A DNA stretch of 64,000 nt from Thalassovita aquimarina (GTDB taxonomy: Bacteria; Pseudomonadota; Alphaproteobacteria; Rhodobacterales; Rhodobacteraceae): positions 248,001-312,000 of the forward strand of contig NZ_JADMKU010000002.1 of assembly GCF_018219815.1 (NCBI RefSeq), written 5' to 3'. The position numbers were made by a program, and so were the translations under genes. Under the pieces are notes generated by a model. The model saw only the letters and a list, made by a program, of their open reading frames with translations, searched no databases and was not told the origin of the DNA. Shown piece after piece: positions 7,474-20,244 of the stretch. Numbering within the stretch: the stretch's first letter is position 1; each line of letters opens with the position of its first letter.

Positions 7474-8427
7474 ATGAAGGCGGCAGTGACGGACCGCTAC
7501 GGTCCGCCTGAGGTGTTAAAGCTAGGCAGGCTACCTCGTCCGCTGCCAGAGAAGGGCGAGGTTCGGGTGAAGATACACGCCTCAACGGTTGGTCGGACCG
7601 ACACGGCCACTCTGCGGGCGCATCCATTCTTCGCGCGAGCGATGACAGGCACGTTCCGACCCAAAATAAAAACGTTGGGTATGGACTTTGCGGGCATTGT
7701 CGACCTGCTCGGCGAAGATGTATCCGATTTCGACATCGGAGATAGAGTCTTCGGTCTATCGCCGGATACGTTCGGCGGCCATGCGGAGTATCTTTGCGTT
7801 CCTGCAAAAGGAGCCATTGCACGCATTCCCGGAGACCTACCATTTCATCAGACTGTAGTTGGCGAAGGTGCCTGGTACGCCGAAGGGACCGCAAAACTGT
7901 TGTCAGAGGGTATGCGATGTTTGGTTTATGGGGCTTCCGGGGCAATTGGAACTGCTGCGGTTCAACTTGCCAAGGCCAGGGGCGCGTATGTGGTGGCGGT
8001 CGTCGGAACCCGGCACGTTGCCTTGTCGAAACGCCTCGGAGCGGACCGTGTCGTGAACTATGAGGCAGAGGACTTCACCGCGATCAGAGAAAAATTCGAC
8101 GTCGTTTTTGATGCCGTTGGCAAGACCTCTTTCTTCCATTGCCGACCGCTGCTGAAGGCCGACGGGATATTTGCGGCCACCGATCTCGGCCCTGGCTGGT
8201 CCAACATTCTGCTCAGCGCATGGTTTGGGCTTACCGGAAGCAAACGCGTTCAGATTCCGTTCCCCAAGGATGCACCGGGGTTTGTTCGACACCTTGCCAA
8301 ACTGATGACGACAGGGCAGTTTCAGGGCGTGTTTGACCGGCGCTATCCCCTGGACGATATCGTCGAAGCCTTTCAATACGTGGAAAAAGGTCAAAAGACT
8401 GGGATCGTCGTGCTCAATGTAACGTAA
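7474..8427 (+). CDS. NAD(P)-dependent alcohol dehydrogenase / quinone-oxidoreductase-like (MDR family)
   Basis: A 317-residue medium-chain dehydrogenase/reductase. It starts with the family hallmark MKAAVTDRYGPPEVLKL; an ATG 18 bases upstream (7456) is a possible alternative start. The nucleotide-binding motif is GASGAIGTAAVQLAKARGA, and GADRVVNYEAEDF and DVVFDAVGKTSF are characteristic. The cysteines of the structural zinc site are absent, so it is a zinc-independent type that uses NAD(P)H to reduce quinones, enones or similar substrates; the true substrate is unknown. It stands alone between the transporter and the plasmid-like element, apparently as cargo. Confidence 0.9.
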   Translation: MKAAVTDRYGPPEVLKLGRLPRPLPEKGEVRVKIHASTVGRTDTATLRAHPFFARAMTGTFRPKIKTLGMDFAGIVDLLGEDVSDFDIGDRVFGLSPDTFGGHAEYLCVPAKGAIARIPGDLPFHQTVVGEGAWYAEGTAKLLSEGMRCLVYGASGAIGTAAVQLAKARGAYVVAVVGTRHVALSKRLGADRVVNYEAEDFTAIREKFDVVFDAVGKTSFFHCRPLLKADGIFAATDLGPGWSNILLSAWFGLTGSKRVQIPFPKDAPGFVRHLAKLMTTGQFQGVFDRRYPLDDIVEAFQYVEKGQKTGIVVLNVT

Positions 8428-8762
8428 ACGGTTTCCTGATGCCATTATGGACACGGCCCCGTGGTTATTGTGTCGGAAGGCAGCGAATGGCCGCTTGCCG
8501 CTCACTCTAGCCGATCAGCCATGTCCGCTATGGGCTGGGAGCGGTCATTCGCTGCAAGACGGACGAAGGGCTGTTTTTTGCCGATTGCGTCGAGCCAACT
8601 TCGGCTTTTTCAAACACAAAACTAGCCATTTCTAACTGAATATGTGTGAAAATCGCGATTTCTCACGGGGTGAATTTCCACGAAAAACCGCGAAAAAGTG
8701 ATATCTTCAGGTATTTTTCGGTTCCGGAATTTTCCGCTTTATTCCGTATATTTCTTCTTATT
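8428..8762. other. Intergenic AT-rich region beside the replication initiator gene
   Basis: No gene is seen. From about 8590 the sequence becomes clearly AT-rich compared with its surroundings, with several TATTTTTCGG-like and TTCCG words between 8700 and 8750. It contains a long dyad (8646-8666). An AT-rich region with dyads next to a replication initiator gene could contain a replication origin, but this is inference. Confidence 0.4.
8646..8666. repeat. 21-bp inverted repeat
   Basis: GTGA and TCAC flank the perfect 12-base palindrome AAATCGCGATTT, giving a nearly complete dyad over 21 bases. It is about 100 bases beyond the 3' end of the replication initiator gene. It could be an operator, an origin element or a weak terminator; no T-run follows. 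Confidence 0.5.
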
Positions 8763-11510: not shown

Positions 11511-12698
11511 TCACTTCACGACGCGAAGCCCATTCCGATCACTCGGACGCCGCCCAATCGCACCGGCCAACCTCGCCGCCACCGATCCCGCCGCGCGCTG
11601 CACCGCCTCGTCTGCGAGGTGGGCATAGCGCAACGTCGTCGTCAGGTTCTTGTGCCCCATGATTTCCTTGAGCGTAAACGGGTCGATGCCGTCCTTCATG
11701 GCGACGGATGCATAGGTGTGGCGAAGATCGTGGATGCGAACGTCAGGAATGCCCGCCCGTTTGCGGATGCGCCGCCAAGGCTTTTGCAGGTTCACCAATG
11801 GGCCTTCCTCCGACTCGCCCAGAATCACATAGGGATTTTTAGGCTGGCGCGGCAGGCTTTGGATAATGTCATAGCCTTCACGGGGCAGCGGAATGCGCCG
11901 CCGCCCGGTCTTGCTGTCAGGCAATTCCAGATGATGCGTCGTCACATAGGACCATTTCAGGGTGAGGATTTCATTCAGGCGGCAGCCTGTATAGGGCAGC
12001 AACAGAATGGCCGAGACGGCGTAGATCGTCTCGCTTCCCTCGTCCAAAGCCTCCAGTAGCACATTCCCCAAGCGGGTCTGTTCCTCGTCGGACAGATAAC
12101 GCTTCTTTTCCTCTTCGCGGAATTTCTTGATCCGGCGGGCGGGGTTCGACCCGGCCTGACGCAAGCCCCAATCCTCGGCCAGGTTGAAGAGCTTGGACAG
12201 CATCGCGGCGGCGCGGTTGGCCTGATACGGCGTTTCTCGCAACCCGTGATGAAACGCCACCACGTCGGCGCGGGTGACCTCGGCAATCGGCAGGGGACCA
12301 AGACGAGGCCGGATCAGGCGGCGGATGATACTTCGATAGTCGCGCGCGGTTGTCGGCTTGCAGTGCTGATCCACGTATTCTTCCAGAAAGCGGTCGCAGA
12401 GGCCCGCGATCGTGGGCGCGTGCAGCCGGTTTTGCTTGTCGCCGGACGGGTCGCCACCATGCGCCACCTCGCCCAGAAGCTGCCGCGCCCGCTTGCGCGC
12501 TTCCTCGGCGGTCAGAACGCCATACTGGCCGATTGTGAAGCGCCGGGTGCGCCGCCCGGAACGGTACTGCACCAGATAGGCCTTCTTGCCGGACGGATAG
12601 ACCCGCAGGCCGAAACCGCGCATGTCGGCATCCCAGACGAGATAGTCCTTTTCGCGAGGGTCCAGCCCGTCAACGGTGCGCTTGGTCAGCTTGAACAT
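11511..12698 (-). CDS. Tyrosine-type site-specific integrase
   Basis: A 395-residue phage-type integrase with an N-terminal arm-binding domain (FKLTKRTVDGLDP...WDADMRGFGLRVYPSG), a core-binding SAM-like domain around residues 95-185, and a catalytic domain. Visible catalytic residues are R in TGCRLNEIL, the HDLRHTYAS box, GHKNLTTT and the nucleophile Y in LRYAHL. All are intact, so it should be active. It is the outermost gene of the minus-strand element; the near-identical 21-bp site 32 bases upstream of its start matches one beside tRNA-Lys, which suggests that tRNA-Lys was its target. Confidence 0.95.
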   Translation of the reverse strand: MFKLTKRTVDGLDPREKDYLVWDADMRGFGLRVYPSGKKAYLVQYRSGRRTRRFTIGQYGVLTAEEARKRARQLLGEVAHGGDPSGDKQNRLHAPTIAGLCDRFLEEYVDQHCKPTTARDYRSIIRRLIRPRLGPLPIAEVTRADVVAFHHGLRETPYQANRAAAMLSKLFNLAEDWGLRQAGSNPARRIKKFREEEKKRYLSDEEQTRLGNVLLEALDEGSETIYAVSAILLLPYTGCRLNEILTLKWSYVTTHHLELPDSKTGRRRIPLPREGYDIIQSLPRQPKNPYVILGESEEGPLVNLQKPWRRIRKRAGIPDVRIHDLRHTYASVAMKDGIDPFTLKEIMGHKNLTTTLRYAHLADEAVQRAAGSVAARLAGAIGRRPSDRNGLRVVK

Positions 12699-12729
12699 TG
12701 CCAGAACATCCTTTGCTTCCGGTCTGCTT

Positions 12730-12750
12730 CCGGAAGCTATACGGAAGCAA
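12730..12750 (+). repeat. 21-bp site upstream of the integrase (right copy)
   Basis: It matches 5939-5959 at 19 of 21 bases in the same orientation. The local sequence is also dyad-like: TTGCTTCCG to the left and CGGAAGCAA to the right, with an extra GCTTCCGG between. It may be an integrase or excisionase arm site and an autoregulatory operator for the integrase gene. Confidence 0.55.
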
Positions 12751-12898
12751 GTGACGGCGAATTCTGGCGTTATTCATGAGTCACCGGCGCAAAGACGGTC
12801 AACGTAAATCATTGTTTTCAATTCATTTTTGTCAGGTCAGCGAAACTCGGAGAAATCCAGCGAAACCCGCCTGTGTTATCTTAAGATCAACCGTCCGT

Positions 12899-13063
12899 AT
12901 GGCGCTGGGCAAGATGGGCGAGGCCACCCCCGAACAGATCGCCCGCCGCTTCCTCCGCGCCCGTACAACAAGCGTACAGCCGCTTCTGGAGGGCCTCGCG
13001 GTCTGGGACAGGCCGAGAAGGTGGAGGAGGACCGGTATGCGGCATGACGGGAGCCAAACTTGA
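12899..13063 (+). pseudogene. Small winged-helix-like protein, probably frameshifted
   Basis: From the ATG at 12899 the frame gives 54 residues starting MALGKMGEATPEQIARRFL and ending in an arginine/tryptophan-rich tail (WDRPRRWRRTG). If one base is restored near 12999 the frame would instead continue as a V-LGQAEKVEEDRYAA-type ending and stop at 13047, which fits the end of a winged helix much better than the actual tail. I therefore read it as a small DNA-binding-like gene with a one-base deletion. No family name is certain. Confidence 0.5.
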
Positions 13064-13116
13064 CCGGGCCTCGCAAGAGGCCCACATTAACAGGAGAGAG
13101 ACCGAGGGTGAGCGGT

Positions 13117-13269
13117 ATGAACAAACAGCAAACGCACATGGTTGACGAGGCGATCGCCAAGCTCATGGCCGAGACCATGAAGATCAACACGGAACACCGC
13201 TACTACCCGTTCATCGTGGCCGCAGGGTTGATGGGCGCAGGTGCAGCCCTCGCAAAAATGTTTATGTGA
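13117..13269 (+). CDS. Small single-span membrane protein
   Basis: A 50-residue protein with a charged helical N-terminus (VDEAIAKLMAETMKINTE) and a C-terminal membrane helix (YYPFIVAAGLMGAGAALA). AGGAGAG lies upstream but at long distance, and the closer GAGGGTGAGCGG may be the ribosome site. Proteins with a K.MAET.KIN.E..YP pattern and one helix occur in proteobacterial mobile elements and prophages, with unknown or holin-like roles. It is first in a compact plus-strand trio; the next start follows one base after its stop. Confidence 0.65.
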   Translation: MNKQQTHMVDEAIAKLMAETMKINTEHRYYPFIVAAGLMGAGAALAKMFM

Positions 13270-13270
13270 C

Positions 13271-13483
13271 ATGAACGAACTGCGGGGTATCCTGCGGGAT
13301 CACATGGCGGACGTGCGAGAGGTCATGGGCGAAACCCTCGACAGCATGGGCAAGACGCTCGACCGACACCTCCAAAAAGTCGAAGCGTCCATGGACTTGG
13401 CCATGCAGGAGCAGGCACAGGAGTACGAGGCGCGACTGTCCAACATCAAGCAACGCCTCGACCGGCTCGAAGCCAGAGGCTGA
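13271..13483 (+). CDS. Small coiled-coil protein
   Basis: A 70-residue protein that is almost wholly helical and charged (MNELRGILRDHMADVREV ... RLSNIKQRLDRLEARG), with heptad-like spacing of leucines and methionines and no membrane segment. Its start is one base after the stop of the small membrane protein, so the two are very likely co-expressed and may form a complex. I do not recognise the family. Confidence 0.65.
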   Translation: MNELRGILRDHMADVREVMGETLDSMGKTLDRHLQKVEASMDLAMQEQAQEYEARLSNIKQRLDRLEARG

Positions 13484-13486
13484 CAC

Positions 13487-13597
13487 ATGGACCAAGCAGA
13501 ACTCGAAAGGGTACTAGCCAAGATCGCCCGTGACCGGGAGGAGACCGACAAGCTGATCAAAGAGGCGGGCAAGCTGAAGGTGGAGACATGGCTTTAA
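13487..13597 (+). pseudogene. Truncated small helical protein, paralogue-like to the membrane protein at 13117
   Basis: Thirty-six residues: MDQAELERVLAKIARD, then EETDKLIKEAGKLKVETWL and a stop. The pattern KLI.EA.KLK.E..(Y)P resembles the N-terminal half of the 13117 protein just before its membrane helix. The frame ends exactly where the helix would begin, so the 3' half seems to have been lost at a junction near 13.6 kb. It starts three bases after the preceding stop. Treating it as a remnant is inference. Confidence 0.5.
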
Positions 13598-13877
13598 GAT
13601 AAAGCCATTTCCACGCGAGGTTCTCGGGAGAGCTACTCTCGCTGCCCTTCAGCGCTTTGGAGAGCTTGGTATAATTAGAATAGACGCCGGGGATGGCCTT
13701 GAGCGCTGCCGGAGCGGTTGTAGTAGCCGTGACTACGGACCATCCCTTTATCAAGGCGGACAAAGTCTCCAACGCAACAGTCGTCCAATCTGTACTACGC
13801 TCTGGCTTCTCGAAACCAATGGTCACTATGCCCTCCCTGCCGAAAATCTCTCGCGTGGAGCTTCGGTCGTCCTTCAC
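13557..13877 (-). CDS. Hypothetical protein
   Basis: A 106-residue frame from a GTG start (MKDDRSSTREIF), with a hydrophobic middle (ALIKGWSVVTATTTAPAALKAIPGVYSNYTKL). I do not recognise it. It converges on and overlaps the truncated plus-strand frame by about 40 bases. It may be a remnant left at a recombination junction; the start codon is poorly supported because no spaced ribosome site is seen. Confidence 0.35.
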   Translation of the reverse strand: MKDDRSSTREIFGREGIVTIGFEKPERSTDWTTVALETLSALIKGWSVVTATTTAPAALKAIPGVYSNYTKLSKALKGSESSSPENLAWKWLYLKAMSPPSACPPL

Positions 13878-13973
13878 CTCAACACCAAGTTATCCTCCCC
13901 TCAATCCGCAGGGCTTCATGCAGTTGGTGCTCAGGCTCACTTTCGGTAGTGGCCTTCTATCCAGACCAGATGG

Positions 13974-14000
13974 CAGCTGCTGCCAGCCTCTCAGGCGCTC
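13974..14000 (+). repeat. 27-bp direct repeat, left copy
   Basis: This sequence (CAGCTGCTGCCAGCC...GGCGCTC) is identical to 18770-18796 in the same orientation. Weaker similarity (GCAAC.AA..ATG) continues for about 26 bases further right in both copies. The two copies bracket the peptide-array/hydrolase/ABC cassette. They could be attachment-site footprints or recombination scars. Confidence 0.8.
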
Positions 14001-14090
14001 GGCGCAACGAATGATGAAGAACGCTCCAGATTGTGCGCCTAGTATTCGCTCACCCAAGCCGTCGCCGGACTTTCGAACAGGAAGCTGAAG

Positions 14091-14303
14091 TTGAAATTTT
14101 CAACCCGGCACCTTTTGGTCAGATTCCCGGCATACTATTACCGCCAGCAAGACGAATTGATAGGCATCCCCCCTCCTTCGAAACAAGGAGACCGCCAAGA
14201 AGCGTTTGAAACGTATTCCGGTATATTTCAGCTTACCGTCATTAGTTTTCAACCTGTCAGCTTCACATCAGATTTTCGGCATATTTCGGCCTACCGCCGT
14301 TAG
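14091..14303 (+). CDS. Short peptide-like ORF, copy A of a degenerate repeated unit
   Basis: From a TTG at 14091, with AGGAAG seven bases upstream, the frame encodes up to 70 residues beginning MKFSTRHLLVRFPAYYY and continuing ELIGIPPPSKQGDRQEAFE. The same peptide pattern (FSSYQLLVRFP...LIGGAPPKPGD.HEVFE) recurs in the frame entering the hydrolase gene at 14302-14420, but there with two in-frame stops. The similarity at protein level, including a one-codon indel, suggests that this was coding. The downstream half overlaps tandem repeats and may not be functional. It could be a precursor peptide or a decayed gene end. Confidence 0.45.
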   Translation: MKFSTRHLLVRFPAYYYRQQDELIGIPPPSKQGDRQEAFETYSGIFQLTVISFQPVSFTSDFRHISAYRR

Positions 14304-14331
14304 TTTTCGAGCTATCAGCTTCTTGTCAGGT
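14216..14331 (+). repeat. 58-bp tandem repeat, two units with a partial third
   Basis: Units at 14216-14273 and 14274-14331 match at 45 of 58 positions, and a third begins at 14332 with TTCCGGAACATTATCAGC before diverging into the sequence that copy A also has (ATTGATAGG...AGGAGAC). Most differences are transitions. The TTTTCRAS core of the unit also appears at 14097 and 14407. Confidence 0.75.
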
Positions 14332-14400
14332 TTCCGGAACATTATCAGCACTCGTAACGAACATTGATAGGGGGTGCCCCCCCGAAACCAGGAGACAAAC

Positions 14401-14517
14401 ATGAAGTTTTCGAGCCGTACTACGGCACAATTCGGCCAACCGCCGATCTGGAAGCAGCGTTTCGCCGCTTCTTTCCGCCTCAGGCATGCGTGTCCGAAAG
14501 AGGTGCGCCTCTCGTGA
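14401..14517 (+). CDS. Short ORF directly before, and overlapping, the hydrolase gene
   Basis: Thirty-eight residues from ATG, with a good ribosome site (AGGAGA, seven bases upstream): MKFSSRTTAQFGQPPIWK then a basic tail ending KEVRLS. The start matches copy A (MKFSTR) at both DNA and protein level, though the later sequence differs. Its stop TGA overlaps the GTG start of the hydrolase (GTGA), so it could serve as a coupled leader peptide or a small product exported by the ABC protein. This frame competes with a hydrolase start at 14364 in another frame; which is used is open. Confidence 0.45.
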   Translation: MKFSSRTTAQFGQPPIWKQRFAASFRLRHACPKEVRLS

Positions 14518-15320
14518 ACGACGCACAAATCAGTTTCCGCCCTGCTCTTGGAGGCTCTATCCCCGCCGCTTGGATCGTCGAACCTAAAAACCCAGCACCG
14601 GAGCGACCATTGGTGGCCGTGCATGGGATTTCGCGCGACGCAGAAGGTATGGCCAGACTACTGGCGCCCATGGCTGCAAGAACCGGGCGAACGGTTATTG
14701 CCCCGCATTTCGACAAACCGAACTGGCCGCGCTTCCAACTGGCCTATTGCAAGAACCGGGCAGACCTCGCGCTGCTGCGGCTTCTGGGCAGCCTAAAAAA
14801 GGACGGGATCATCCCGCCGGGGATCCCTGACCTGGCCGGGTTCTCCGGCGGCGCACAGTTCGCCCATCGCTTTGCTTGGCTCTACCCGGACCGGGTCGGG
14901 CGGCTTTGCCTGTCCTCTGCCGGATGGTGGACCTTCCCCGAAACCGCGCGGTGGCCGATGGGTATGGGGGCGACACGGAGGCAACCGCTGTTCCAGTTCT
15001 GGTTGTCGGCGAACCTGCCTGCCTTTCTTGATCGGCAAATCGTCGTGAGGGTCGGGGCGTTGGACAACATACCGGATTCCAACACTCGCCGCGATCCTGA
15101 ACTGGACGCCCGACAGGGGCAGGACCGGGTCACCCGCGCCACACTCTGGGCCGGCGCCCTGCGCGATGCTGCGCTCACGCATCGCATCAAACCAGACATC
15201 AACTTCGCGGTCCTGCCCGGCTGCGGCCATAGTGTGGCAGATTGCGTCACCAAAGGCGGGCTCGATGCGGACTTCCTGAACGCGGTGGAGCAGAACAATC
15301 CCGAAAGGCGGATCGCATGA
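14514..15320 (+). CDS. Alpha/beta hydrolase fold protein
   Basis: From GTG 14514 the product is 268 residues; an in-frame TTG at 14364 would add 50. The alpha/beta hydrolase features are VAVHGISRD (oxyanion strand), the nucleophile elbow GFSGGAQFAHR, and a late GCGHS histidine; ALDNIPD is a candidate for the acid. The fold covers esterases, lipases and peptidases, so the substrate is open. It is the first large gene of a tightly coupled cassette; its stop overlaps the start of the DUF1611-like gene (ATGA). No signal peptide is seen, so it should be cytosolic. Confidence 0.85.
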   Translation: MNDAQISFRPALGGSIPAAWIVEPKNPAPERPLVAVHGISRDAEGMARLLAPMAARTGRTVIAPHFDKPNWPRFQLAYCKNRADLALLRLLGSLKKDGIIPPGIPDLAGFSGGAQFAHRFAWLYPDRVGRLCLSSAGWWTFPETARWPMGMGATRRQPLFQFWLSANLPAFLDRQIVVRVGALDNIPDSNTRRDPELDARQGQDRVTRATLWAGALRDAALTHRIKPDINFAVLPGCGHSVADCVTKGGLDADFLNAVEQNNPERRIA

Positions 15321-16393
15321 CCCAACAGGCAAAATGTTTCACCCACCTGACAACAGCCGCGAAATGGGCCTTCACGACACGGCGCGTGCCGTCGGAACGG
15401 GTCGCGGGGCTGTCGCCTGCGCTGGACCGCGCCCGCAGCGGGGATCTGGTTCTGGCCGAAGTCGTTTCAATTGGAAGCCACAAGCGCCTTCAGACGCGTG
15501 AGGGGCGTCGTTCGACCCTGTTTCCGGGCGATTTCGTCGTTCTGGCCTGCGGAGACCGTTTCGCAATGGACCAGTTCGAAGGTCACGCCGAATTGCAGGC
15601 CGGAGGCAGCGACATGCTGGCATCGGGCGGTGTGCTCGGCACCATGATCGCGCGCAACGCGCGGGTGTCGACCCCCACGCGCCTGCGGCCTTTGGGGCTG
15701 CTTATCGACGGCGCCGGCGCGGTCATATCCGTGGCTGATCACGCCCTGCCCCCTCACCAGAACCCCTCCCGCCCCGACCTGGTTCTGGCCGTGGTCGGCA
15801 GCGGCATGAACGCGGGCAAGACAGATGCGACGGCGTGGCTTCTGCGGGGGTTCTCGCTGATGGGGCTGCGGACGGTAGGGGTCAAACTGACCGGCACCGG
15901 ATCATTCGGAGATACGCAGGCCTACACCGACGCCGGCGCGGCGATGGCGCTGGATTTCACGGATGCAGGCATGTCTTCGTCCTATCGGCAACCTGTGTCG
16001 CGCATCGTGGCGGCCCATGATCTGCTGATGTCCGAGGCCGCGGCACAGGGCTGTGACGTCGCAGTGATTGAACTGGCTGACGGCGTGACACAGGTCGAAA
16101 CCGCCGAGCTGTTGAACGACAAGTCCTTTGCCCAGGGTCTGGACGGTGTCCTGTTCGCGTGCGCCGAGCCTCTCGCCGCCATGGCCGGCATGGCGTGGCT
16201 TTCCGATCGCGGCATCACGCCTCTGGCCGTGACGGGCCGGATCACCTCGGCGCCGCTTGCCGTGGCCGAGGTTGCGGCATTGTCCGATGTGCCGGTTCTG
16301 TCTCGCGAAGCCCTTGCCGATCCGGTCACGGCCAGCGCCCTGAGCCAGACGATCCGGCAGCGCAGAAAGACCAGACACGGTCTGGCCGCATGA
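15317..16393 (+). CDS. DUF1611-like P-loop NTP-binding protein
   Basis: A 358-residue protein. The N-terminal half (to about residue 150) has no recognised motif; the C-terminal half has a Walker A motif GSGMNAGKTDA and then KLTGTGSFGD and DVAVIELADGV, resembling the P-loop domain of DUF1611 proteins (the family that contains the D-glutamate N-acetyltransferase DgcN). The usual DUF1611 neighbour, a dipeptide epimerase, is absent, so a D-glutamate role is not supported here. Start and stop both overlap neighbours by four bases, so it is made together with the hydrolase and the ABC transporter. Function unknown. Confidence 0.75.
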   Translation: MTQQAKCFTHLTTAAKWAFTTRRVPSERVAGLSPALDRARSGDLVLAEVVSIGSHKRLQTREGRRSTLFPGDFVVLACGDRFAMDQFEGHAELQAGGSDMLASGGVLGTMIARNARVSTPTRLRPLGLLIDGAGAVISVADHALPPHQNPSRPDLVLAVVGSGMNAGKTDATAWLLRGFSLMGLRTVGVKLTGTGSFGDTQAYTDAGAAMALDFTDAGMSSSYRQPVSRIVAAHDLLMSEAAAQGCDVAVIELADGVTQVETAELLNDKSFAQGLDGVLFACAEPLAAMAGMAWLSDRGITPLAVTGRITSAPLAVAEVAALSDVPVLSREALADPVTASALSQTIRQRRKTRHGLAA

Positions 16394-18003
16394 GCCGCAT
16401 TCCCCGCATCACCGCTGACGGGCGGGGCCTGCAATTGGCCGGGCTGGTTGCGCTTGCGCTTGGACAGGCCGTGGCGGGCGGGGCGACGGCATTGGGGGTC
16501 AGCGCGGCGTTCGGCGCGCTGCGCGCACCGGTGGGCGACCTGCCGGTCGCGGCCCTGACGATCATTGCGGGATCGGCGCTCGTGCTGGCTGGTTTCCGGG
16601 CCGCCGAGGCGGTTCTTGCCGAACATGTCGGCCAGAAATACGCCGCCGCAGTCCGCGAACGCCTTTTCCTTCATATCAGCCGGATGCCTGTCGGTGCCAT
16701 GCGGGGCAAGCGGAACGGTGCGCTGTCGCTCCGCTTTGTCGGGGACCTGACGGCGATCAAGAGCTGGGTTTCGGGCGGCATCGCGCGACTGGTATCGGCG
16801 GCGGTAACCATCCCGGCGATGCTGCTCGTGCTGTACTGGCTGGCGCCGGTTCTGGCGCTCGCAACCCTCGGTCCGATTCTCTTCACGCTGCTATTCTATA
16901 TCCTCATGCGCGCGCCGCTCGGGGCGGCGCATGCCGCACTTCGCAAGCGGCGGGCGCATATGGCGTCGGATTTGGCGGAACGTCTGCCCCAGGGCATCGC
17001 GCTGCGCCGTTTTGGCAGGCTGCGCATTGAACGGCGGGCGCTGGCGGGTCATTCCGCGGCGGTGACGCAGGCGGCGGGGAAACGCGCCCTTCTGGCCGGG
17101 CTGGTTCGCGCCGCCCCGGATGCCGCGTCGGGCCTTACCGTGGCATTGGTTCTGTGGGTCGCGATGTTGCGCGGCATCGACCTGCCCGAGACCGCGGCAG
17201 CCCTGACGGCACTGGGGTTGATCGTGCGCCCGCTGCGCCAGTTGGCTGGCGTGTCGGACAAACGTCAGGCATGGATCGTTGCGACCGGTAACCTGCGCCG
17301 CGCCCTGAACGCGCCCCGCATGGCCGCCACGCGCTCCGGTCGCGGCGCGAAGAAGCCCGACCCGGAATCTCCCGCGCTCGAACTCAAAGCTGTCCGCCTG
17401 CATGACGGCGGTGAGCTGAGCGCCAGCATCGACCTTGGCGAGACGGTAGCGGTGATCGGCGCACCCGGCGCCGGCAAGAGCCGCCTGCTGATGGTGGCGG
17501 CGGGTCTCGATGCTCCCGAAAGCGGGTCCGCGCGCGTCTTCGGCATGAAGCCGACCGAACCTGCGCCGGGCAGCGTGCTCTACCTCGGGCCCGCCGCTCC
17601 GATGCTGCGCGGAAGCCTGCGCCGCGATGCAATGATCGGGGTCGACCCCATGCCGTCGGACCCGGATATCCTGCAGGCGATTTCCCGCGCCGGTCTGGAT
17701 GGGCTGTGCGCACGGATCGGCGGACTGGACGGCAAAGTGGCCGAAGGGCGCCGCAACCTGACCGCCAGCGAAACGGCGCGCCTGCACGTGGTGCGGGGCC
17801 TGTTGTCCAAAGCCCGGCTCGCGCTTGTGGATGCCGACGAAATCGGGCTGGACGCGTCGATGTGCACCCTGCTGCTGGAACATTTCAAGGCGAACGGCAC
17901 CACCTGCCTTCTGGCGACCTCGTCGCGCAGGGTTCTCGACCAGCTTGGATCGACGCTGGCCCTTCCCGCGCCACCGGTCGACGTCGCGGACAACGCAGCA
18001 TGA
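16390..18003 (+). CDS. ABC transporter (membrane plus ATPase domains) with a degenerate ATPase
   Basis: A 537-residue fusion of an exporter-type membrane domain (about six helices in residues 15-290) and an ATP-binding domain (from about residue 335). Walker A is intact (GAPGAGKS). The signature region reads NLTASETAR in place of LSGGQ, the Walker B region reads LALVDADEIGLD so that the usual glutamate after the aspartate is alanine, and the H-loop position (LLATSSRR) has serine in place of histidine. ATP binding may persist but normal hydrolysis is doubtful. The gene overlaps the DUF1611-like gene and the following mini-ORF by four bases. An export or sensing role for the cassette is inferred. 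Confidence 0.85.
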   Translation: MSRIPRITADGRGLQLAGLVALALGQAVAGGATALGVSAAFGALRAPVGDLPVAALTIIAGSALVLAGFRAAEAVLAEHVGQKYAAAVRERLFLHISRMPVGAMRGKRNGALSLRFVGDLTAIKSWVSGGIARLVSAAVTIPAMLLVLYWLAPVLALATLGPILFTLLFYILMRAPLGAAHAALRKRRAHMASDLAERLPQGIALRRFGRLRIERRALAGHSAAVTQAAGKRALLAGLVRAAPDAASGLTVALVLWVAMLRGIDLPETAAALTALGLIVRPLRQLAGVSDKRQAWIVATGNLRRALNAPRMAATRSGRGAKKPDPESPALELKAVRLHDGGELSASIDLGETVAVIGAPGAGKSRLLMVAAGLDAPESGSARVFGMKPTEPAPGSVLYLGPAAPMLRGSLRRDAMIGVDPMPSDPDILQAISRAGLDGLCARIGGLDGKVAEGRRNLTASETARLHVVRGLLSKARLALVDADEIGLDASMCTLLLEHFKANGTTCLLATSSRRVLDQLGSTLALPAPPVDVADNAA

Positions 18004-18056
18004 AGATGTCTGCCTACACTTCTCAACTTCAACTCAAGAAACGCAAGGGATCATAA
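18000..18056 (+). CDS. Eighteen-codon mini-ORF coupled to the ABC gene
   Basis: MKMSAYTSQLQLKKRKGS, with its ATG overlapping the ABC stop codon (ATGA). It ends three bases before the start codon of the Tat-exported protein, so ribosomes could pass directly to that gene; AAGGGA within it serves as the next ribosome site. It could be a coupling leader or a small product. Such short frames can also arise by chance. Confidence 0.3.
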   Translation: MKMSAYTSQLQLKKRKGS

Positions 18057-18058
18057 AA

Positions 18059-18682
18059 ATGCAACATTCCCCAACACGACGAGAATTTGGCCTGGGACTG
18101 GTCATGGCTGCGACCGGAGCAAGCCTTATCCTTCCACCGACCATGGCCGAGGCCGCGGGATCAAGAAACCTCCGTTTCGGTCTGTGGACAGGCAAACGCT
18201 GGTCACGGTTCGGCAACCGCATCGACGTGAGAAGCAAAAGCCGCCACATTCACGGCCCCTATTCCTGGCCGCATCCCGTCACCGGCGAGAAACTGACGAT
18301 CTACATTCGCGACAACCACGACAAGAAGGGCAAGCGGACCCAGTATTTCACCCTGCGCGAGGACGGGACCGCGCTGGCCCGCGTCTTTGACCGCCGCCCG
18401 GGTCGCCCAGACCGGGTATTTGTCGGCGACGCCTTCATGCCGCAAGGCCAGTGGTCCGCCGGTCAAAGCCGCAACTACACGATGCAGGAATACAGCGGAC
18501 GCAGTAAAAAGACCTATCAGCTGACCTTGCAGGTCCTCGACCCGGCCAGAACCTATCGCGGTGTTCGCAACTCCATGCGTTATGAATGGATCGCAAAATC
18601 CGGTCGCAAAGTCGTCTATCACGAACGTTTCGACTACTCCCCGGGAGTCGGGTTCGTGAGGTTCGACAATCGTCTCAACTAA
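18059..18682 (+). CDS. Tat-exported protein of unknown function
   Basis: A 207-residue protein with a twin-arginine signal: TRREFGLGLVMAATGASLIL then PPTMAEA, with cleavage expected near residue 35. The mature part is basic and rich in aromatic and strand-forming segments (FGLWTGKRWSRFGN, GKRTQYFTL, KVVYHERFDYSPG), likely an all-beta periplasmic domain. I do not recognise the family. It has AAGGGA eight bases before its ATG. It closes the cassette; a single exported protein beside a hydrolase and ABC transporter suggests a periplasmic partner or folded cargo. Confidence 0.75.
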   Translation: MQHSPTRREFGLGLVMAATGASLILPPTMAEAAGSRNLRFGLWTGKRWSRFGNRIDVRSKSRHIHGPYSWPHPVTGEKLTIYIRDNHDKKGKRTQYFTLREDGTALARVFDRRPGRPDRVFVGDAFMPQGQWSAGQSRNYTMQEYSGRSKKTYQLTLQVLDPARTYRGVRNSMRYEWIAKSGRKVVYHERFDYSPGVGFVRFDNRLN

Positions 18683-18769
18683 CGTAACAGGAGGCTCAGA
18701 CCGAATCAGACGTGTCTGAAATCTTGTTGCAGGTGGTAGGGTTGAAACCGCCGGATCATATTCCGATGA

Positions 18770-18796
18770 CAGCTGCTGCCAGCCTCTCAGGCGCTC
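18770..18796 (+). repeat. 27-bp direct repeat, right copy
   Basis: Identical to 13974-14000. It lies about 90 bases after the last gene of the cassette and about 50 bases before the end of the integrase remnant. Confidence 0.8.
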
Positions 18797-18848
18797 CATG
18801 CAACAAACAATGGCAAGAGCTCTAGGAGCATAAGACACATCCGCCCAA

Positions 18849-19151
18849 CTAGCTCCTCAGGGGCACCACGTCAGCCTCTGAGGACCATTTCCCCCGCTCA
18901 AGGGCATTTTCCACCAATGTGCCCCAGGCCTCCATCATGCGGATCTTCTGAGGCGAAAGCGCAGCTTGGTTATATGCTGCGGACACTCCCACGCGGGTCG
19001 CAGACTGTCGGGGGTTGAGCAAAGCGTCCGCGACAGCCGGATCGCCGATCCCCTGTTCCGCCAGCACCGTCATGAAGGTGCGGCGGAGGTCGTGGAAATT
19101 GAAGTCAGAAGCACCCGATCCCGCCGTACACGGTTCTTGAATGGGGTCCAT
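18849..19151 (-). pseudogene. C-terminal remnant of a tyrosine recombinase
   Basis: One hundred residues corresponding to the end of a phage-type integrase: FNFHDLRRTFMTVLAEQGI is the HDLRRT catalytic box and SAAYNQAALSPQKIRMM carries the likely nucleophile tyrosine. The segment ALLNPRQSAT has proline where active members have the histidine of an NHR-type motif, and the N-terminal two thirds are absent upstream. It is therefore a decayed recombinase and marks a second, older integration event at the right end of the accessory region. Confidence 0.8.
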
Positions 19152-19239
19152 GACTTGAACGACTTACCACTTACCAAAATATGACCAATCACTCGGGTGG
19201 TTTCCCCCCGGTTGACCGGGCTCGCCGTCATGGCGCCGC

Positions 19240-20244
19240 TTAGCAGTCGTAATACTCCCGGTACCAGTCGACGAAGCACTGGACCCCTTTGTCGACCGGA
19301 ATCGGCGTGATCGGGCCGGCCAGTCGCGTCAGCAGCATGGTGTCGGCCCAGGTCGCCGGTACGTCACCGGGCTGCATCGGTATCAGATTGCGATCAGCGG
19401 ATCGTCCCGTGGCGGCTTCGATCGCAGCGATAAAATCAGTAAGCTGGACCGGTTGCGAATTGCCGATATTCACGATCCGCCAGGGGGCCACCGGCGACAG
19501 GCTATCTTCGGCGCAGACGCTTTTCCCGTCGGGCGGGGGCGGCTGGCCGGCCAGCCGCCACAGCGCTTCGACAAGGTTGTCGATATAGGTAAAGTCGCGC
19601 TTCATGTCGCCGAAATTGTAAACGTCGATCGGGTCGCCATTCAGGATGGCGCGGGTGAACTTGAACAGGGCCATGTCCGGCCGGCCCCAAGGGCCATAAA
19701 CGGTAAAGAATCGGAACATCGTCGTCGGCAGGGCAAACAGATGCGCATAGGAATGCGCCATCGCTTCCGTCGCCTTCTTGGTCGCGGCATAGAACGACAT
19801 CTGGTGATCGGCCCGCATCGTCTCGCGATAGGGCATTTCGGTATTGGCGCCATAGGCCGAAGACGTCGAAGCCAGCAGCAAATGGCGCGGCGGGTAGGCG
19901 CGGGCCGCTTCGAGCAATTCGAAGCTTCCCACGATATTGCTGTCGAGATAGTCGCGCGGCACCTCGATCGAATGGCGCACCCCGGCCTGGGCGGCGAGGT
20001 GGAAAACCAGGTCGAATCGCTGTTCAGAGAAAAGCCGCATCAGAAGACCCGGCTCCTCGACCCTGCCCTGCACGAAGCTGAAATCGGGGCCTTGCAGGAG
20101 GTCGAGCCGCGCCTGTTTCAAAGAAACGTCGTAATAGTCGGTCATGGCGTCCAGGCCAACAACCTCGAAACCTTCTGCGCTCAGGCGGCGGCAGAGATGA
20201 AATCCGATAAAACCGGCGGCGCCGGTCACAAGAGCTTTAGGCAT
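19240..20244 (-). CDS. NAD-dependent UDP-sugar epimerase (UDP-glucuronate 4-epimerase-like)
   Basis: A 334-residue extended short-chain dehydrogenase. The Rossmann motif is VTGAAGFIGFHL, followed by GLDAMTDYYDVSLKQARL, which is typical of UDP-glucuronate 4-epimerases (LpsL/Cap1J type); the catalytic motif is YAATKK and STSSAYG is present. It would supply UDP-galacturonate for a surface polysaccharide. It is divergent from the polysaccharide operon starting at 20938, with about 690 bases between, which fits shared regulation. Confidence 0.88.
   Translation of the reverse strand: MPKALVTGAAGFIGFHLCRRLSAEGFEVVGLDAMTDYYDVSLKQARLDLLQGPDFSFVQGRVEEPGLLMRLFSEQRFDLVFHLAAQAGVRHSIEVPRDYLDSNIVGSFELLEAARAYPPRHLLLASTSSAYGANTEMPYRETMRADHQMSFYAATKKATEAMAHSYAHLFALPTTMFRFFTVYGPWGRPDMALFKFTRAILNGDPIDVYNFGDMKRDFTYIDNLVEALWRLAGQPPPPDGKSVCAEDSLSPVAPWRIVNIGNSQPVQLTDFIAAIEAATGRSADRNLIPMQPGDVPATWADTMLLTRLAGPITPIPVDKGVQCFVDWYREYYDC

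Follow-up and report, generated by a model that had tools for sequence, protein, structure and literature searches.

The window, the whole stretch of 64,000 nucleotides that was analysed, holds a short gene cassette between two direct repeats. Twenty-seven bases are identical between the repeat copies, as the preliminary description had noted, and they lie within 61-base copies of 79% identity. Between the copies are the genes for a hydrolase, a P-loop protein, an ABC-type protein and a protein with a Tat-like signal. The features are as follows.

11511-12698, minus strand: tyrosine integrase, left of the cassette (context)
13969-14029, no strand: left direct-repeat copy, 61 bases, with the 27 identical bases at 13974-14000
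14097-14341, no strand: degenerate repeats, not a peptide array; a duplicate of the operon leader, now decayed (14152-14259), overlaps them
14401-14517, plus strand: candidate 38-codon frame with a ribosome-site-like sequence and a four-base overlap with the hydrolase GTG
14514-15320, plus strand: alpha/beta-hydrolase, PahZ1/LpqC-like, 268 aa from GTG 14514, putative catalytic Ser, Asp and His kept
15317-16393, plus strand: P-loop protein with a DUF1611/dethiobiotin-synthetase-like fold, Walker A and K190 kept
16390-18003, plus strand: ABC-type membrane protein, CydC/ABCB-like, Walker A present, signature and H-loop degenerate
18000-18056, plus strand: 18-codon frame at the third ATGA (18000), overlapping the ABC stop
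18059-18682, plus strand: Tat-like-signal protein, 207 aa, of a rare family
18765-18825, no strand: right direct-repeat copy, 61 bases, with the 27 identical bases at 18770-18796
18849-19151, minus strand: integrase-like C-terminal fragment, right of the cassette, below the Pfam cut-off (context)

The 27-base repeat occurs twice in the host genome and is absent from the 294 other sampled genomes of the family and from the plasmids searched. The integrase fragment was not found in 148 other genomes at E 1e-10, nor in the plasmids searched. Both integrase genes lie outside the repeats, so the segment lacks the integrase-inside-repeats arrangement of an att-bounded integrative element. No RNA element in 12700-19300 matched Rfam up to E 0.5, the z values for folded leader pieces, three in number, were -0.58, -0.04 and -2.06, and promoter and terminator predictions were near chance level. 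Four-base overlaps had been described for the hydrolase, P-loop and ABC genes; those at 15317 and 16390 are real. Between the ABC and Tat genes there is no overlap. The Tat protein had also been taken as a partner of the other genes. A fixed partnership is not supported, and the protein is linked to the operon only weakly. Kinship with exported lipoproteins encoded near eight relatives found no support (hhalign probability 1.3%), and a single-sequence model of the protein (mean pLDDT 46.9) was too poor for a fold search.

A genome scan returned at least 549 relatives, and the best-scoring 80 P-loop loci were kept; some of these lie in the family genomes as well, and kinship keeps the loci from being independent. 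The hydrolase is present at 64 of the 80 (missing at the threshold used in the other 16) and the ABC-like gene at 76, and at 53, as in the window, the hydrolase, P-loop and ABC-like genes follow in this order on one strand. The P-loop and ABC-like genes overlap by four bases in 45 of 66 cases. Gene fusions join the hydrolase to the P-loop protein at locus L081 and an Asp/Asn beta-hydroxylase (AspH) to the hydrolase at locus L070. The operon occurs in Alpha-, Beta- and Gammaproteobacteria. Order, overlaps, fusions and co-occurrence show that its parts belong together. The preliminary description had made its reading depend on such neighbourhoods elsewhere and on a non-random substitution pattern, and both are found: the three genes adjoin in many other genomes, and P-loop gene differences of 0.36, 0.29 and 0.59 at codon positions 1, 2 and 3 point to purifying selection. 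Divergence of the window proteins exceeds that of most sequences compared: counted from the worst, they rank third of 63 and sixth of 51. They retain 39 of 40 near-invariant positions in the hydrolase, 60 of 63 in the P-loop protein and 10 of 11 in the ABC-like protein. A chance assembly, or DNA in decay at an integration hot spot, would fit the integrase gene and fragment that flank the cassette, as well as the decayed leader duplicate, but the gene order conserved elsewhere, the retained residues and the codon-position pattern refute it for the three core genes and make it extremely improbable overall. The cassette is real and intact, and is no chance assembly.

The degenerate repeats before the hydrolase had been read as encoding short related peptides. 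The spacings between the starts of the copies, 149 and 58 bases, are not divisible by three, and being mutually out of frame the copies speak against a peptide array at 14097-14341. Between the two tandem copies 13 of 58 bases differ. The stretch 14152-14259 aligns with the leader at 14357-14464 as a decayed duplicate without the leader's ATG. A hydroxylase, a hydrolase and an ABC protein are parts known from RiPP-like clusters, and in the window each end of the core operon is overlapped by a short frame; both points speak for maturation and export of a small peptide. This proposal of the preliminary description is nevertheless quite unlikely. In addition to the out-of-frame repeats, neither a counterpart of the 18-codon frame at the same place nor a common short frame after the ABC gene was found among 60 of the 72 relatives, and the ATPase motifs of the ABC-like protein are degenerate. 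Of the proposed layout for peptide or metabolite maturation and export, the conserved gene neighbourhood stands, the peptide half is unsupported and the export half is doubtful.

The ABC-like protein has the same membrane and ATPase domain order as CydC/CydD and MsbA-type exporters. Among curated models CydC (2.5e-28) scores better than MsbA (2.2e-14), both far below the curated cut-offs. Unlike those transporters, many members of this family lack ATPase motifs: Walker A, GAPGAGKS in the window, is found in 44 of 73 sequences (window included) and an LSGGQ-like signature in 33 of 73. In the window the signature reads NLTASE and the H-loop position is Ser, so that both the LSGGQ-type signature and the H-loop His are gone. 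An export role is doubtful because these motifs are missing in so many members. This is an ABC exporter family seen losing its ATPase motifs while the membrane half is better conserved.

The hydrolase most likely starts at GTG 14514, the starts at 14364 and 14403 marking open frame only. Its closest solved relatives by sequence are poly(aspartic acid) hydrolases and LpqC, and in the profile search LpqC scores slightly above PahZ1. The window protein has the conserved Ser, Asp and His (S148, D221 and H276, numbered from 14403) together with the subfamily motifs that mark PahZ1-like enzymes; like PahZ1 and LpqC, it has the nucleophile region S-x-G-x-QF-x-HR and the QG-x-x-R region. The strains that yielded PahZ1 were isolated on a synthetic polymer, and cleavage of beta-Asp amide bonds is reported for it (PMC4456602). 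Unlike PahZ1, the hydrolase here sits in an operon with a P-loop partner.

The P-loop protein has a BioD-fold P-loop domain with Walker A. Dethiobiotin synthetase BioD shares the fold of this C-terminal domain (Z about 15 to 16.7), and a weak sequence match to BioD spans Walker A and the conserved Lys; unlike BioD, the protein carries an additional N-terminal part of about 150 residues. SRP GTPases and CTP synthase folds score almost as high as BioD. The conserved sites are G167-K168-T169, K190, D213 and E252. The DUF1611 (PF07755) fold is shared as well, since 2g0t, a structure of the DUF1611 type, ranks with the best folds (residues 63-349, Z 15.7, 172 residues aligned, rmsd 3.4), and the sequence match is weak: DUF1611_C matches 29 of 63 P-loop members at E 0.01 or better. 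The window member is not among these; Pfam yields no hit for it up to E 1, and it does not reach the PF07755 gathering score. DgcN, which we take to be a DUF1611 protein, suggests another route, in which an amino-acid N-acyltransferase/deacylase pathway would resemble D-glutamate catabolism and the hydrolase would remove the acyl group. The weak DUF1611_C matches and 2g0t speak for it, as does a more distant relative of 29% identity beside an M20 peptidase gene (L050); the neighbour at this locus is that peptidase, which rules out DgcA there. We consider this route rather unlikely, since the window protein lacks a Pfam match, identity is only 28-29% for the family's two distant matches, and simple catabolism would hardly account for a dioxygenase and a conserved membrane gene of the ABC-like kind. 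Literature text searches returned no published description of the operon, which agrees with the earlier remark that no described system has a DUF1611-like protein in this place.

AspH is encoded at 32 of the 80 loci, at 28 of them directly before the hydrolase, and the other 48 have no AspH nearby. The AspH of relative L031 matches the aspartyl/asparaginyl beta-hydroxylases (PF05118, E 4e-17). Among 295 genomes of the family, a close AspH (at least 67% identity, a threshold set after examples had been seen) occurs in seven, all with the P-loop gene; the co-occurrence p-value of 2e-9, which counts 20 P-loop genomes and leaves out two distant ones, is rough. In the tree, the window's six nearest relatives all have AspH, and the window genome has none at E 1e-10; the window copy is therefore a derived core. 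An apparent AspH remnant at about 7715-7786 on the minus strand (tblastn E 1e-4) is antisense to an alcohol dehydrogenase gene and was judged to be chance. Together these comparisons show that the conserved operon has, in its fuller form, the composition AspH–hydrolase–P-loop–ABC-like protein, and that the window's copy of it is derived. LpxO, of the AspH family, hydroxylates lipid A. An AspH-family lipid hydroxylase, an esterase and an MsbA-like flippase could thus modify an envelope lipid, and the ABC protein does match the MsbA model, though CydC more strongly. This reading is quite improbable: the hydrolase resembles poly-Asp hydrolases and LpqC, and the nearest solved relatives of AspH, both weak, are a 'beta-hydroxylase' and L-proline cis-4-hydroxylase.

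Asp-rich reading frames (11 Asp in 25) lie near 30 of the 80 loci compared with 0 of 20 control regions. Counting long loci, the figures are 24 of 58 and 0 of 20 (p = 1.9e-4, a rough value, as the controls were drawn from ten family genomes only and the Asp-rich threshold, like that of 170 bits for the subtilase, was set after examples had been seen). In some neighbouring subtilases tens of Asp residues stand in a row. No Asp-rich subtilase occurs in the window genome at E 1e-20. The subtilase–sigma module also stands alone, 9 of 15 subtilase genomes being without the P-loop gene. Asp-rich frames accompany 14 of the 32 AspH loci and 16 of the 48 without AspH, so the presence of Asp-rich neighbours does not follow that of AspH. 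Near the 80 loci, a two-component kinase is found at 38, a regulator at 33 and an ECF-type sigma factor at 32, and EF-hand-like Asp-rich proteins adjoin some family loci. These neighbours would suit a regulatory or calcium-homeostasis module in which Asp-rich proteins would sense metals and the enzymes would work in signalling. We regard this as very unlikely, because the strictly kept catalytic-type residues suggest chemistry and not sensing alone.

The best explanation in our view, to which we give somewhat less than even odds, is a derived operon copy that carries out ATP-driven modification of an Asp-derived substrate. The hydrolase hits and the Asp-rich frames supply its poly-Asp link. 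The better profile score of LpqC, the 16 loci lacking the hydrolase, the subtilase genomes without the P-loop gene, the poor agreement between AspH and Asp-rich neighbours, the missing AspH and subtilase of the window genome and the divergence of the window proteins count against it. We infer as the target an acidic molecule derived from Asp, either free or as a peptide or protein tract. Where AspH is present, it would beta-hydroxylate this molecule. The P-loop enzyme may activate a carboxylate or amine with ATP, as in dethiobiotin synthetase, and the hydrolase may cut or transfer a bond of beta type, amide or ester. The ABC-type protein might be the membrane anchor of the enzymes, and where its ATPase is intact it might also move the product. 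Two-component or ECF-sigma pairs, often nearby, may control the operon. In the window, AspH is missing, and a Tat-exported protein shares the repeat-bounded segment between the integrase genes.

With its dioxygenase, its P-loop ligase-like enzyme and its hydrolase with poly-aspartate-cutting relatives, the operon suggests a link among three kinds of enzyme. Its parts make up a multi-gene enzyme system that is kept by selection, often lies beside its own regulators and is undescribed in the literature searched. A more specific form of the Asp-directed reading, which we think unlikely, is a poly-Asp editing system: AspH would hydroxylate Asp-rich tracts of exported proteins, the P-loop enzyme would activate them with ATP, the PahZ1-like hydrolase would trim or cross-link them, and the decayed ABC exporter would serve as a membrane scaffold. 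If true, poly-Asp editing would give PahZ1 enzymes a natural role.

The hydrolase, P-loop and ABC-type genes of the window belong to an operon that recurs in many genomes. The P-loop protein occurs in at least 549 places of the species-level genome collection, and our locus set consists of the best 80 of these, several cut by contig ends. A hydrolase of the same family is encoded in 64 of the 80 loci and an ABC-like gene in 76 (score > 150 in each case), and in 53 all three genes are complete, in this order and on one strand. Of the 66 loci in which the P-loop and ABC-like genes are both complete and share a strand, 45 show a four-base overlap between them; a four-base overlap of hydrolase and P-loop genes is rarer (only 7/58). 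In one genome (L081), hydrolase and P-loop protein are fused. Within the Rhodobacteraceae, the P-loop protein is present in 22 of 295 genomes, host and two distant matches (28-29% identity) included, and 8 of 72,556 plasmid records match it. Our literature search, which used DUF1611 and related terms and had most subscription journals outside its scope, found no description of the operon; the two papers listed for DUF1611 are on other subjects, judging by their titles.

In the window, the preliminary description had the hydrolase, P-loop, ABC and Tat-signal genes enclosed by identical direct repeats, and this is what we find:

13974-14000 and 18770-18796: direct-repeat pair, 27 identical bases, bounding a 4.8-kb segment

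The plus strand of the segment encodes the hydrolase, the P-loop protein, the ABC-type membrane protein and a further protein that bears a Tat-like signal. The four-base overlaps between hydrolase stop and P-loop start and between P-loop stop and ABC start are likewise as described. The whole host genome holds two copies of the 27-base repeat, both flanking the cassette, and the 294 other sampled family genomes hold none. GTG 14514, which aligns with the position where relatives begin, is the most likely start of the hydrolase. The stretch upstream had been read as repeats encoding related peptides. This reading fails because the spacing of the copies, 149 and 58 bases from start to start, does not allow one reading frame to be kept. 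Part of the stretch, 14152-14259, duplicates the operon leader at 14357-14464 in decayed form, without the leader's ATG. Overlapping the hydrolase start is one 38-codon frame that has a ribosome-site-like sequence; it is at most a candidate peptide gene. Further upstream, three small consecutive frames (13117-13597) adjoining an integrase look like phage or integrative-element remnants.

The window retains the conserved active-site-type residues of the P-loop protein and hydrolase. Of the near-invariant positions (agreement in at least 95% of relatives), its P-loop protein has retained 60 of 63, with T60, S222 and A290 lost, its hydrolase 39 of 40, the one lost lying upstream of the likely start, and its ABC-like protein 10 of 11. 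Judged from the alignments, the window proteins are more diverged than most relatives, because they rank third from worst of 63 rows and sixth from worst of 51. The differences from L068 (Rhodosalinus halophilus) at codon positions 1/2/3 amount to 0.36/0.29/0.59 (P-loop gene), 0.36/0.33/0.59 (hydrolase) and 0.38/0.33/0.55 (ABC gene), a pattern that points to purifying selection on all three rather than decay.

The operon has a further partner, the Asp/Asn beta-hydroxylase AspH (PF05118). It is encoded in 32 of the 80 loci, directly 5' of the hydrolase in 28 of them, and in one genome (L070) AspH and hydrolase form a single reading frame. A search of the 295 family genomes gave eight AspH matches. 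Seven, at 67% identity or more, all fall in genomes with the P-loop gene (Fisher p = 2e-9); the eighth, at 42%, is in a genome without it. In two genomes (G063 and G125), AspH lies far from the P-loop gene. The window falls within a seven-row clade of the P-loop tree (support 100/99). AspH was most likely lost from the window copy, because all six other clade members have it and our search of the window genome found none.

The Tat-signal protein is less closely tied to the operon. No relatives were found in the 294 family genomes or in plasmids, and 4 of 50 P-loop-gene genomes, hand-chosen from the 80 loci and mostly alphaproteobacterial, have one. Three are full-length, on stretches without the cassette; the fourth, in L117 of the window's clade, is truncated, a remnant close to the cassette. 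A link to the operon is suggestive, not firm.

Against solved structures, the hydrolase family profile matches LpqC best (3.8e-32), followed by two poly(aspartic acid) hydrolases (8.4e-31 and 1.5e-27). With the window hydrolase alone as query, the poly-Asp hydrolases come top (3.6e-10 and 6.1e-10) and LpqC third (6.5e-7). According to passages of PMC4456602, poly(aspartic acid) hydrolase-1 (PahZ1) cleaves beta-Asp amide bonds in thermally made poly-Asp and is similar to PHB depolymerases. The P-loop protein gave a very confident structure model (mean pLDDT 95.3). In this predicted model, the C-terminal domain matches the dethiobiotin synthetase fold, and residues 63-349 align to the DUF1611-type structure 2g0t (Z 15.7). 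Because SRP-type GTPases and CTP synthases reach nearly the same scores, the fold indicates the superfamily, not the reaction. DgcN is a DUF1611 protein. Its gene, dgcN, is treated in parts of PMC12363236. The ABC-type protein is nearest to CydC/CydD and ABCB exporters, yet scores far under the curated cut-offs. Walker A is kept in 44 of 73 sequences and an LSGGQ-like signature in 33; the window protein keeps Walker A, has NLTASE as signature and lacks the H-loop His. The membrane half is the better conserved, with a mean column identity of 0.58 against 0.49 for the ATPase half.

Asp-rich frames (at least 11 Asp in 25 residues) occur in 30 of the 80 loci, 24 of them as the N-terminal part of an apparently exported subtilase. 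Among loci of at least 16 kb, 24 of 58 have such a frame versus none of 20 controls, which were 20-kb regions from ten family genomes carrying the P-loop gene (p = 1.9e-4). The subtilase is usually accompanied by a sigma factor (32/80 loci) and an anti-sigma factor (31/80). This module is also seen in family genomes that lack the P-loop gene: a subtilase match of at least ~170 bits is present in 15 family genomes, of which 6 have the P-loop gene (p = 1.5e-4). A histidine kinase lies near 38 of the 80 loci and a response regulator near 33. Asp-rich neighbours are found in 14 of 32 loci with AspH and 16 of 48 without; they show no association with AspH, and this speaks against one role shared by both.

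Several neighbourhoods were recorded in passing. In L151-L162, subtilase, sigma and anti-sigma form a recurrent module (all three in 11/12 loci); in most cases the N-terminus is Asp-rich, and L152 and L159 add EF-hand-like Asp-rich proteins. Judged by eye, L063 (host genome C9, ~45.3 kb) encodes at 8197-8652 an Asp-rich, apparently exported protein, similar to one in L145, adjoining a large membrane-type frame and a response-regulator-like frame. A distant P-loop form adjoins type I secretion-type genes in L047, L048 and L028, with a CapA-like gene in L047 and L028, and the L028 gene is a fusion with a Mutator transposase piece. A Priestia megaterium plasmid (L029) encodes a P-loop protein of 25% identity amid ATP-grasp, thiamine-diphosphate and PEP-mutase-family genes, which may form a phosphonate-type cluster. 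The P-loop gene of L136, titled Enemella evansiae (Actinomycetota), groups with a Paracoccus plasmid in the tree, and the L136 contig is as long as one of family genome G002; L136 is probably a mislabelled or contaminated assembly. Near the operon, 8 of the 80 loci encode members of a conserved lipoprotein-like family without assigned function:

L070, L087, L089, L092, L093, L095, L098, L122

The component genes, the order in which they lie, their co-occurrence and fusions, and the retained active-site-type residues are observed. We infer the operon's substrate, the order of its reactions and any transport: AspH, the P-loop enzyme and the hydrolase would carry out an ATP-driven modification of an Asp-derived substrate, and the ABC-type protein would be their membrane partner.
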